From assembly GCA_021733795.1 (NCBI GenBank), contig JAIPKB010000006.1, positions 1 to 60,865 on the forward strand: DNA of 60,865 bases, written 5' to 3'. The notes beneath the pieces are model-generated. The model saw nothing but the letters and a program-made list of their open reading frames with translations. It made no database searches and had not been told where the DNA came from. This document shows positions 31,613-43,165 of the stretch, one piece after another. The DNA is from Akkermansiaceae bacterium. GTDB taxonomy: Bacteria; Verrucomicrobiota; Verrucomicrobiia; Verrucomicrobiales; Akkermansiaceae. Made by a program: the position numbers and the translations under genes. The first letter of the stretch is position 1. Every line of letters starts with the position of its first letter.

Positions 31613-31700
31613 AAAAAGGGAGCCTTTTGGCTCCCTAAGTCGTTGTTTTTGATGCTGGTACTCCGGGAGGGATTCGAACCCACGACCAATTGATTAAGAG
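31613..31700 (-). repeat. island end repeat: tRNA-Lys 3' part plus terminator (att site)
   Basis: Positions align without gaps (offset 11,434) with 43047-43134. A 38-bp block at 31663-31700 is identical to the 3' part of tRNA-Lys (anticodon side through the T arm). The hairpin terminator region at 31613-31645 is also matched. About seven mismatches lie between, mainly at 31646-31656. The tRNA 5' half is missing here, so this is the displaced end of an integration site. Confidence 0.85.
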
Positions 31701-31876
31701 AGTATCGTTTTTCTGTTACAGTTTGCATAATTCGACACATTATGGCCGATACTGGCCGCAACTTGCCATCAGTATTTTGCACCATTTTGGCCAACTGGAA
31801 CCGCGGTGGCAATCTGGTTGTCGCCATTTGTCGCCACCATTTCAGTTAGACGGCAGTTGACACGGCCAACACCGGC
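31701..31876. other. att-flanking region with short direct repeats
   Basis: The stretch contains TTGTCGCCATTTGTCGCCAC near 31818, two direct copies of TTGTCGCCA, between the attachment core and the excisionase gene. These could be arm or Xis binding sites; this is inference from position only. Confidence 0.3.
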
Positions 31877-32086
31877 ATGGACCAGCCAACTGACCCGCCG
31901 CGCACCGAACCAACCGCCGACCCGCTACTCACCGAAAAAGACGCCTGCACCTACCTGAAGGTGAGCAAACGCAACCTCTACTGCTGGCGCATGGCCGGAC
32001 TGATCCCGTATTTCAAGATCGGCCGGGCGGTGCGGTTCCGGAAGTCGGAGGTGGATGCGGCGCTGGAGCGGATGCGGATGGGATAG
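31877..32086 (+). CDS. excisionase-type MerR-like helix-turn-helix protein
   Basis: The 69-residue product reads DPLLTEKDACTYLKVSKRNL, YCWRMAGLIPYFKIGRAVRF and RKSEVDAALERM. This is the winged HTH_17/excisionase pattern (LT...A..YL.VS...LY.W...G.IP..KIGR.VRF...E.D.WL). Its place about 180 bases inside the left att repeat fits a recombination directionality factor or island regulator. No integrase gene accompanies it. Confidence 0.8.
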   Translation: MDQPTDPPRTEPTADPLLTEKDACTYLKVSKRNLYCWRMAGLIPYFKIGRAVRFRKSEVDAALERMRMG

Positions 32087-32173
32087 CATTACCTCGTACG
32101 TTGATAGAATAAACGAGGAGTCATCACCCAGTTGTGGCAGCCATGAGTGTGGCTGTGAACTTATGGTGCACAC

Positions 32174-33559
32174 TCAGCTTAAAGATACCCCTTTATCCCA
32201 AAGCTCACGGAGTGCTTCTTCTATGACGGCAGCAGATAAACCCACGCCCTTTTCGAGGCCTCGGATCTGAATCATACGGGTAATCTGGGTGTCCAGGTCT
32301 TCCTTTCGGCGCATCAAGATACGGTGCTGGTCGCGGGGATGGCTGTACCAAGGAATCAGGCCAAAAGAATAGGGAGTCTTTTCGTTGATCTCTTCTATGA
32401 GCAGTTGGAGGACGGCTTTGGAGTTTTGTTCATAGTCCAGCGTCTCGAAGCCGATCTGATCGCGGGCTGCGCTTTCAACGCATGGTGTCATGCCCATGTC
32501 AATTTCGTTATCATGCAGGTTCCAGATCCAGTTCAGGATCTTGGCAGCATTTGCAGACAAGCTGTAGGTCTCTGCCGGATCCCTGCGATTTCGTGCCTCT
32601 AGGATCGATCCTTTGACCAGCTCCCAAGTCCAACCATTCTCAAGCGTGGCCCCAAGCAACCATCCAGTGCCAGCTTCATCCTCCAAGGTGGCGGCAGGAC
32701 GTAACCCACGGGCCAATCGTAGATCACCGAGAAATTCCTTCAGCTCGTATGGCGTCAGACGAGCATCGGTTGCCACTGCGGGCAGTGCGTGCACCAATTC
32801 AGCCCTACTGTGAATCTCAAACAGGATACACGACTGCACGTTACTGTCGAAATCTCTATTGAGGACAAGGTCCTCGATCATCTGGATGTAGGCCCGTGAG
32901 GCGTCTTTGTCTCTCTTTTTCATGCGGTATGGAAAGACGGGGTTATCGAGGACTCTTTTGCTCGCCTGATTCTCCTTCTCTTCATCCACGAGCGTGAGCT
33001 TGAGATTGGCGGGCCAACCTCCGTTCTTTTCCATTTTGACCTGGTGGGGAGTTTTGAGGCAGATCTCCTTCACGTAGCTTCCAACGCGCGAGTAGCTTCC
33101 GGCCCCTCGCAAAAACGCCTGCGATCCAATGCGGTTTTCCGGAACAAAGTCGCCTGTGTTCTTGGCGCCCTGGATCCATTTCAGCACTTTCAGGGCGTTG
33201 TCGGTGAGGTGCCATGGGTTTTCACTTTCAAATCCAACCCATGCGTCTTTAATTACCTCGTCCCACTCGTGACCTTCCCTGAGGACGATCCAGAGAGTGT
33301 CCGACACGGTATGGCCGAAATGATCCCTGCTCTCGGCTCTGAATTGTATCTCAAACGACTCCCTAGACGCTCTCGTGGCGGCAGAATCCAGCATTTGCCT
33401 CGCCCTGCGATCATTGGCCCGGGTTTCGGAGAACAGCCTTCTCAACTCCTCATGGGGCGTCACCTCCTGACTCCCTGTCCAGAACGGAATGAAAGAGGTT
33501 TGGCGGATGTTCTCCAGACAAGCCTCAATCACCGATTCCACCATTTCTTCGGCGTTCAC
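32174..33559 (-). CDS. hypothetical protein with internal duplication (461 aa)
   Basis: No family is recognised. Two regions resemble each other: W..L.EGHEWDEVIKDAWVGF then HLTDNALKVLKWI, IGSQAFLRG and VKEICLKTP (about residues 88-170); and W...LENGWTWELVKGSILEA then YSLSANAAKILNWIW, IGFETLDYE and LIEEINEKTP (about 300-395). The gene lies between a complete excisionase gene and a second, partial excisionase copy. Cytosolic, no signal peptide. Confidence 0.6.
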   Translation of the reverse strand: MNAEEMVESVIEACLENIRQTSFIPFWTGSQEVTPHEELRRLFSETRANDRRARQMLDSAATRASRESFEIQFRAESRDHFGHTVSDTLWIVLREGHEWDEVIKDAWVGFESENPWHLTDNALKVLKWIQGAKNTGDFVPENRIGSQAFLRGAGSYSRVGSYVKEICLKTPHQVKMEKNGGWPANLKLTLVDEEKENQASKRVLDNPVFPYRMKKRDKDASRAYIQMIEDLVLNRDFDSNVQSCILFEIHSRAELVHALPAVATDARLTPYELKEFLGDLRLARGLRPAATLEDEAGTGWLLGATLENGWTWELVKGSILEARNRRDPAETYSLSANAAKILNWIWNLHDNEIDMGMTPCVESAARDQIGFETLDYEQNSKAVLQLLIEEINEKTPYSFGLIPWYSHPRDQHRILMRRKEDLDTQITRMIQIRGLEKGVGLSAAVIEEALRELWDKGVSLS

Positions 33560-33679
33560 ACTACTCTATAACATGGGGAATGCGATCTGCAACTTCAAGG
33601 AGCGGGCTTTAGGCGGCCTGGGCTTGTGGACGGTGATGTCAGCGGGTGTGACACCGGCGGAGAAGCCTCCCGGGTTCAG

Positions 33680-33763
33680 TACACCCTAATCGGCCGCGCC
33701 GTCAGGTTCCGGAAATCCGAGGTGGACGCAGCGCTGGAGCGGATGAGGATGGCCGCGATTTGA
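33680..33763 (+). pseudogene. excisionase fragment, second copy
   Basis: It reads YTLIGRAVRFRKSEVDAALE then RMRMAAI and a stop. It matches the C-terminal half of the gene at 31877 (IGRAVRFRKSEVDAALERMRM) with synonymous differences in DNA. The N-terminal helix-turn-helix is gone. Confidence 0.75.
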
Positions 33764-41722: not shown

Positions 41723-41831
41723 GTGATGAATCTACCCGCCGGGGTGTGCCGGACAATCCGAAAACGCCGGCAATCGAGCCAGTCAGTCAAGAATGCGGTG
41801 TAAGCCCCCCTACAGGTGTATCGGATGACGA

Positions 41832-42467
41832 TCAGGCCGCCGCAGCTCCCCCGCCCTGTCGGTGCATCGCGACCACGTCCGCCACCGTGCCGCGGATCCC
41901 GGCGAGGAGCAGCACCCCTTCAACCGGGTCCACAAGGTCGGGAATCTCCATCGACCGGCGGGGCACCGAACCAGCCCTCAGCGCGGTGTGGAGGAAGGCG
42001 GGGTCATCCTTGCGGTCGAGTACGTCGAAATAGAGGGCGGTGTAAGCCTCGACCGCCGGCACCGAAAAGGCGAGGGCACCGGCGACCCGTTCAACGGTGG
42101 CGTCGAAGGCCAGCAGCGTGGCATTGAGCAGGCGGCGGATTTCCGGCTGGCCGTCCAGGCGCATCGCCTGATGGACCGCCAGCAGGTCCGGATCGGAGCC
42201 GTGTTCGATCCCGGGACTTCCCAGCAGCGCGATACCGTGGCGCACCCACCGGTACGGGGGCTCGGCCAGCAGATCGGTATGGCAGTCCCTCATTGCGAAG
42301 TCCATCGCCATCGTCCACCCGAAGTCGGGGTGGTTCATGACCTGCGACTCGCCGGCCCTGATTCGGTTCCGCTCCCTGATCCGCCAGCTCCACAGGTCCA
42401 GCCCCGGCGGCACTTCGTAGGTCCTTATCCAGGCAGCGTGCAGCAGTTTGATTTCGTGCGTTGTCAT
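41832..42467 (-). CDS. hypothetical protein (211 aa)
   Basis: It starts MTTHEIKLLHAAWIRTYEVP and contains PDFGWTMAMDFAMRDCHTDL, YRWVRHGIALLGSP, RLLNATLLAFDATVERVAGA and VEAYTALYFDVLDRKDDPAF. The region around VPAVEAYTALYFDV is helical and could be a regulator-like domain. The family is not recognised. Last gene before the island's right end. Confidence 0.55.
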   Translation of the reverse strand: MTTHEIKLLHAAWIRTYEVPPGLDLWSWRIRERNRIRAGESQVMNHPDFGWTMAMDFAMRDCHTDLLAEPPYRWVRHGIALLGSPGIEHGSDPDLLAVHQAMRLDGQPEIRRLLNATLLAFDATVERVAGALAFSVPAVEAYTALYFDVLDRKDDPAFLHTALRAGSVPRRSMEIPDLVDPVEGVLLLAGIRGTVADVVAMHRQGGGAAAA

Positions 42468-43046
42468 GGTTGTTGCCGGGTTGTTGTTGGGTGGATCCCG
42501 CCGTGGCGTAGTTGCCGCCAAATCCGAACACTTGGGAAACGTCGAGCCGCAACCCTGCTTCGGCGGCAGGGAGGAGTTTCAAAAGCGGTTGAAAACACAA
42601 GGCTGTCATATCCGTAATCGCGCCCCGCGCTATATCCGCAACCCTGTCGCAAGTCAATCGTTTTCAGCGGCTTATGATTCAAAATACGCAACCGGACGCA
42701 ACGCTCGCCGCCATCCGCAGTCGCTTGCCGCAACCAATGATAGCTGATGATATTCTATGATTGCAGTTGACCCCGCCATCGCGTCTTCGTGTCCTTGTGT
42801 CACCCCCGGATGAACTTTCTGCATTTGTTGCAGGCGATGACACCATGACACCGTGTTCGAGAGCTGTCAGGACTCTGCCAGGAGTTCTCATGGCAATTAC
42901 AAGGGGCGACGGGACCGGGTAAAACCCCGACGTCCGATCGAAGGGGCCGAACCGCAGCCAACCGGAGGACGGTCGGTTCCCCAATCGCCGCTCTGTGCCG
43001 GAAACGATTGACAGCGGATTGACAGCGGAACAAATTTCAGGACACG
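42468..43046. other. intergenic, no gene recognised
   Basis: No supported gene is seen between the last island ORF and the tRNA-Lys terminator. An integrase, which usually sits here in tRNA islands, is absent. Confidence 0.45.
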
Positions 43047-43070
43047 AAAAAGGGAGCCTTTTGGCTCCCT
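43047..43070 (-). terminator. tRNA-Lys terminator
   Basis: On the minus strand AGGGAGCC AAAA GGCTCCCT forms an 8-bp stem and 4-base loop followed by TTTTT. The same hairpin is duplicated at 31613-31636. Confidence 0.85.
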
Positions 43071-43134
43071 AAGTCGTTGATTTTAAAGGGGGTACCCCGG
43101 GAGGGATTCGAACCCACGACCAATTGATTAAGAG
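43047..43134 (-). repeat. island end repeat within tRNA-Lys (att site)
   Basis: This is the partner of 31613-31700 at a fixed offset. The identical 38-bp core (43097-43134) lies inside the tRNA from the anticodon loop to the acceptor stem, so integration keeps the tRNA functional. Confidence 0.85.
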
Positions 43135-43165
43135 TCAACTGCTCTACCAACTGAGCTACCGAGGC
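43093..43165 (-). tRNA. tRNA-Lys (anticodon CTT)
   Basis: A 73-base cloverleaf on the minus strand. The acceptor GCCTCGG pairs with CCGGGGT (two G-T pairs). The D arm has AGCTCAGTTGGTAGAGC, the anticodon loop is CTCTTAA with CTT at 34-36, and the T arm has GGTTCGAATCC. Discriminator is A; CCA is not encoded. Confidence 0.95.

Follow-up and report, generated by a model that had tools for sequence, protein, structure and literature searches.

A probable integrase-less remnant of an integrative element at tRNA-Lys(CTT) in an Akkermansiaceae genome, with the left end of a family that targets many tRNA genes

Results and discussion

The window analyzed here is a whole contig of 60,865 nucleotides (G000:C242; JAIPKB010000006.1 of assembly GCA_021733795.1) from an Akkermansiaceae metagenome-assembled genome (MAG) that is 86% complete and consists of 318 contigs. 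In it, an 11,434-bp segment lies between two copies of the 3' half of tRNA-Lys(CTT), and this segment is probably the decayed, integrase-less remnant of an integrative element that entered the anticodon loop of that tRNA gene. A previous reading of the letters alone (the sequence-only reading) had deduced site-specific integration into tRNA-Lys from the repeat; the repeat by itself is insufficient for this, and integration is well supported because the left end of the segment recurs in many genomes as an element end next to tRNA fragments. The element family has more than 20 copies in this Akkermansiaceae genus and normally follows one plan, with a restored tRNA followed by an integrase at one end, an inward-facing helix-turn-helix (HTH_17) gene at the other, and the 19-bp arm motif TTGTCRCCATTTGTCRCCA in inverted orientation at both. 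The left end in the window is a complete HTH end of this kind, composed of half a tRNA, the arm motif and an intact HTH frame.

The tRNA-Lys gene and the attachment repeats

The following features define the two attachment (att) regions:
31570..31612, unstranded: left flank, with a 16-bp exact match (ACCGGAAATGCACCGC) to the native tRNA-Lys downstream flank in genome G055
31613..31700, minus strand: left repeat, displaced tRNA-Lys 3' half plus terminator, with the junction in the anticodon loop, after GATTAAGAG
43047..43134, minus strand: right repeat (repeat search), tRNA-Lys 3' half plus a host-type terminator hairpin, without an integrase end behind it
43090..43166, minus strand: intact tRNA-Lys(CTT) (ARAGORN), the reconstituted target gene, with rpmA and rplU to its right

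The repeat search recovered a direct repeat of 88 nt with 93% identity and a constant spacing of 11,434, and its last 38 positions are identical, the same length as the identical core noticed by eye. The first 33 positions are identical as well, and all six differences fall at repeat positions 34-50, i.e., in a 17-bp tract surrounding the tRNA-terminator spacer (P = 0.0006 versus random placement). Such clustering fits both copies having been working tRNA ends at the time of divergence and would suit the drift of a dead copy poorly. A 36-bp pattern from the core occurred twice in the window, only at the repeats, and in 0 of 100 shuffles. The intact tRNA is indeed on the right, ending at 43166 rather than at 43165, and the left copy, read from the start as lacking its 5' half, matches tRNA-Lys solely from the 3' end to position 33 and stops at the anticodon loop. 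The 16-mer ACCGGAAATGCACCGC, unique in the window, is common to the left outer flank and the native flank in G055, and this resemblance agrees with an origin of the left copy as the displaced host half.

Base composition lends integration no support, as the proportion of G + C is 0.595 inside the segment, 0.583 to its left and 0.613 to its right. An attempt to derive polarity from the acceptor stem, where pairing is slightly better in the left copy, which also encodes CCA, was dropped, as relatives have the acceptor sequence of the right copy. Both tRNA copies (43090-43166 and 31657-31700) have a T-T mismatch in the T-stem (GTGGG/CCCTC), unlike aligned relatives.

The HTH end and its tRNA targets

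Three features make up the left end:
31701..31876, plus strand: recombination arm, non-coding DNA conserved at the left end of the element family (repeats of this family in 32 of 73 genus genomes; alignment)
31818..31836, plus strand: arm motif TTGTCRCCATTTGTCRCCA, the sole copy in the window; its inverse is found at integrase ends elsewhere
31877..32086, plus strand: HTH_17 protein of 69 amino acids, probable excisionase or directionality factor (Pfam PF12728, E 1.2e-15)

In the window, this family end comprises 176 bp of non-coding DNA and the HTH_17 gene. The stretch 31701-32086 was matched in the same 32 genomes, with up to nine matches per genome; within the genome of the window itself, C255 holds a second long copy. 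In most of the longer family copies the alignment shows a tRNA fragment in the DNA immediately outside, and fragments of the anticodon type match intact tRNAs only from positions 31-34 through the 3' end. By comparison with intact tRNAs and reading of the anticodon loop, the targets at HTH ends were assigned to Lys(CTT), Arg(ACG), Tyr(GTA), Met(CAT), Leu(AAG), Leu(CAG), Leu(TAG) (5' half) and initiator Met, where the cut lies in the T loop. Across one group of Verrucomicrobia, the family thus inserts into at least eight different tRNA genes. At three loci (L148, L153, L184), the junction of the family end with initiator tRNA-Met lies in the T loop rather than in the anticodon loop.

A scan of 84,980 species genomes for TTGTCRCCATTTGTCRCCA placed the family mainly in MAGs of Akkermansiaceae and other Verrucomicrobia, with more distant versions in Chthoniobacterales and many further matches without tRNA fragments. 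Several of the latter, e.g., in Caulobacteraceae, Photobacterium and Lachnospiraceae, were set aside as chance or unrelated. A viral origin was likewise rejected, since the arm motif in four viral contigs lay within repeats or had no tRNA fragment. Two loci in Chthoniobacterales MAGs (L163, L175) have another left-end sequence with the same arm motif against half a tRNA-Met, a more distant branch of the family.

Integrase ends and target switching

With the tyrosine integrase behind tRNA-Lys in G079 as query, integrase relatives were found in 47 of the 73 genomes. Most of those examined begin 40-92 bp behind an intact Lys, Leu(CAG), Leu(AAG), Arg, Tyr, Phe or initiator Met tRNA, while more distant relatives lie behind Ser and Pro tRNAs, and the inverse arm motif (e.g., TGGCGACAAAATGGCGACA) is present in most examined integrases with at least 54% identity. 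On a tree of 42 integrases, the tRNA label requires 12 changes, the lowest number possible, compared with 30.7 when labels are shuffled; subclades are therefore largely faithful to one tRNA, with several target switches. In one of these, a switch to Leu(TAG) within the Lys group that also reversed the orientation, the element supplies the tRNA 5' half and the upstream region (L264, L139, L191). The core positions GATTNNNAG may be a candidate determinant of the tRNA target.

Both ends of an element were present on one contig in two cases at tRNA-Arg. The first (L152) spans ~6.6 kb and carries, in order, tRNA-Arg, integrase, a RepB/ParB pair, a serine recombinase, the HTH gene and half a tRNA; the second (G018:C11) spans ~58 kb, with HsdR, HsdM and HsdS directly behind the HTH end. 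HsdM likewise follows the HTH end in L075, and type I restriction genes thus are recurrent cargo of the family. Tandem arrays are suggested by loci L136, L138, L139 and L145, where an HTH end and a tRNA fragment are joined to another integrase end. Another contig of the same genome as the ~58-kb element (L230, G018:C45, 4063-5447) has a cluster of eleven tRNA genes close to a fragment of hsdR and to two integrases placed back to back around half a tRNA.

Origin of the segment

The right end of the segment departs from the family plan, and the segment is not an intact island. None of the own-genome matches to PF00589 falls within 31.7-43.0 kb, tblastn searches of the 11.4 kb with family and other integrases returned nothing except the translation of the tRNA itself, i.e., no hidden integrase remnant, and the arm motif that accompanies the integrase at this end elsewhere was not found at the right end of the window. 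A tyrosine recombinase at 2144-3106 was considered and rejected as the island integrase: it is 29 kb off, beyond the left repeat, and phmmer matched the element integrases best by other seeds.

In the favored explanation, an element would have entered the anticodon loop of tRNA-Lys(CTT) through a tyrosine recombinase, with exchange across the 7-bp loop and restoration of the tRNA as is known for tyrosine integrases, and the HTH protein would have served as the excisionase (Xis-like). The integrase and its arm would later have been lost or replaced, either by deletion or by recombination between related elements, which would have left the right end as a tRNA 3' half with a host-type terminator and the element presumably immobile today.

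Three observations weigh against this explanation. First, the HTH end of the window groups with the tRNA-Arg element of its own genome (C255), apart from tRNA-Lys elements (99% support in the Shimodaira-Hasegawa-like approximate likelihood ratio test, SH-aLRT), so that the history of the locus includes a target switch or recombination. Second, tRNA-Lys stands beside rpmA only in the window genome, and no syntenic empty site was found among the genus genomes; tRNA-Lys sites in single copy, with no second half copy nearby, occur in G016, G055, G058 and G074, none of them syntenic. Third, the right terminator, which in alignment resembles that of the single-copy sites in G016, G055 and G058, is of a host type that is absent at the Lys integrase ends examined and is unexplained by simple integration.

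One alternative is an integrase-less element, with two att sites and an HTH end, that relies for its movement in trans on integrases encoded by sister elements of the same cell. In its favor, the two half-sites and the HTH arm are all intact. Family integrases are present in the own genome at tRNA-Phe (C137) and tRNA-fMet (C143), along with a shorter one of 275 amino acids at tRNA-Arg (C95). On this view, the right repeat, together with its terminator and native-like flank, would be a host end that had been captured; for archaea, rescue in trans has been proposed for defective integrated elements (PMC8371274). Nevertheless, integrase subclades are largely restricted to one tRNA, the window's own genome yielded no Lys-type integrase, and the right arm motif is absent, which makes this scenario unlikely. 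A bolder version, which treats the segment as a functional passenger whose defence cassette lies between the tRNA half and the shared HTH arm and can be moved by family integrases at other tRNA loci of the genome, including a switch from tRNA-Arg to tRNA-Lys, is speculative and somewhat harder to credit.

The segment could also be a chimaera of related elements from different tRNA loci, in which homologous recombination joined the left end of one to the right side of another. Several related elements per genome, the grouping of the HTH end with the Arg element of the same genome, the fragment of a second HTH gene at 33689-33752, and the unique rpmA neighborhood would all agree with such an event, but both repeats share the unusual T-stem sequence and are oriented as plain integration would leave them, and we consider a chimaera quite improbable. 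An assembly error might be suspected in a MAG of 318 contigs and 86% completeness when the ends of the segment are repeats; it is very unlikely, given that the repeat is merely 88 bp long with 6 differences and that the left end and the half tRNA have the normal structure of the family. Finally, it is scarcely credible that the tRNA 3' end was duplicated locally long ago without any integration, as this would account for the repeat itself and nothing else, while the junction lies exactly at the anticodon loop with a family end adjoining, and family ends adjoin fragments of other tRNAs in the same way in other species. Relatives with the same 11.4 kb uninterrupted and both copies, which the sequence-only reading had named as the sign of an old duplication, were looked for, and the segment was found in none of the other genomes of the 73-genome genus set.

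Comparison with known elements

The segment resembles cis-mobilizable elements (CIMEs), which are att-flanked and have no recombination module. It likewise has att sites at both ends and no recombinase of its own, and differs in that the window holds no sign of an integrative and conjugative element (ICE) as parent. It also resembles the tRNA islands of the Islander collection in having an intact tRNA and a displaced 3' fragment of the same tRNA in direct orientation with an anticodon-centred crossover, but Islander requires an integrase inside the island and the window has none (PMC4383910). In that collection, displaced 3' fragments are usual (3760 vs. 159 5' fragments); tandem arrays also are on record there, and integrases are said to switch targets frequently (PMC4383910). 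According to the account of Badel et al. given in PMC8371274, a single family of archaeal integrases, that of pT26-2, covers 14 tRNA genes in Thermococcales, and for archaeal tRNA integrases recombination between resident elements, together with rescue in trans, has been proposed (PMC8371274). As portrayed there, the pT26-2 integrases are similar to the verrucomicrobial family in that one integrase family extends over many tRNA genes with recombination between resident elements, but they are archaeal, suicidal and split by integration, whereas the verrucomicrobial integrases are not split.

The spread of integrases across many tRNA targets is thus already known in kind. Neither the element family nor its integrase-less member in the window was found in the literature searched, and the search returned nothing relevant on such elements in Akkermansia or Verrucomicrobia. 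A repeat spotted by eye has become a recognizable element end, and it reveals a family in Verrucomicrobia whose integrase lineage extends across many tRNA genes while the arm and the HTH end are kept. It thereby becomes testable, within one bacterial genus, how integrases switch targets and how elements that differ in their tRNA target exchange ends. The window itself would hold a decayed island with an orphan restriction gene.

Cargo and neighboring genes

Between the HTH end and the right repeat, the following features were annotated:
32174..33559, minus strand: protein of 461 amino acids with unknown function (no Pfam or PADLOC match; in no other of the 73 genus genomes)
33689..33752, plus strand: 3' fragment (64 bp) of a second HTH_17 gene (94% identity to the G000:C255 copy, 86% to 32018-32081)
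33805..36936, minus strand: HsdR, type I restriction subunit, intact frame of 1043 amino acids (Pfam and PADLOC)
36940..37764, minus strand: AbiEii-like nucleotidyltransferase, below the Pfam cut-off, with the same place and orientation beside hsdR in G052 (L226)
37755..38927, minus strand: AbiEi-like partner, below the Pfam cut-off (67% DNA identity to L226:7105-7736)
39585..40832, unstranded: mosaic of repeats from the own genome (C144, C159, C91), including an 87-amino-acid 'AP2-like' open reading frame (ORF) at 40342-40605 and a 158-bp repeat at 40139-40296
40836..41372, minus strand: flavin reductase-like protein (PF01613, E 4.7e-30)
41832..42521, minus strand: ORF of 229 amino acids without a match, uncertain gene

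The second HTH fragment indicates that at least two elements contributed to the segment. The label of a defence-type island suits the cargo in part, namely HsdR and the AbiE-like pair, but hsdM and hsdS are not present, which leaves hsdR as an orphan there, and the right third is largely repeat-derived debris. The gene order would suit AbiE itself, with both Pfam matches under their cut-offs (18.4 vs. 21 and 18.8 vs. 22.5 bits), and the 'AP2-like' ORF has no Pfam match at all. The 158-bp repeat looks like a small mobile repeat, with 96-97% identity in C144 and C91 and 78-80% in G061 and G073.

The hsdR gene shares 82-87% DNA identity with copies in ~9 other genomes. An AbiE-like pair stands directly before hsdR both in the window and in G052, as in type I restriction-modification loci with embedded toxin-antitoxin pairs, but the G052 locus (L226) has hsdM and hsdS and the window lacks both; its order is hsdM, hsdS, DarTG-like pair, AbiE-like pair and hsdR, with the names of hsdM, hsdS and DarTG assigned by reading of the sequence. 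A search of the own genome (a MAG of 86% completeness) with the L226 HsdM gave weak motif matches only (21-34%), and hsdS was not searched genome-wide. In the same G052 locus (L226, G052:C5), ~80 bp of the hsdR 5' end are repeated at 4187-4281, 6183-6263 and 8562-8650 with 90-95% identity to the start of hsdR in the window, and one such repeat precedes every two-gene pair embedded between hsdS and hsdR, which looks as though the pairs had been inserted together with copies of the hsdR start.

To the left of the island, at 28691-31164, a PDC-S26-like protein is encoded together with an ORF that fuses an HsdR N-terminal part to an HsdS-like C-terminal part, so that defence-like genes extend outside the repeats. 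Farther left, at 17985-22202, lies an ORF of 1405 amino acids composed of many short repeats of the type LTELSDAAAESLSKHQG.

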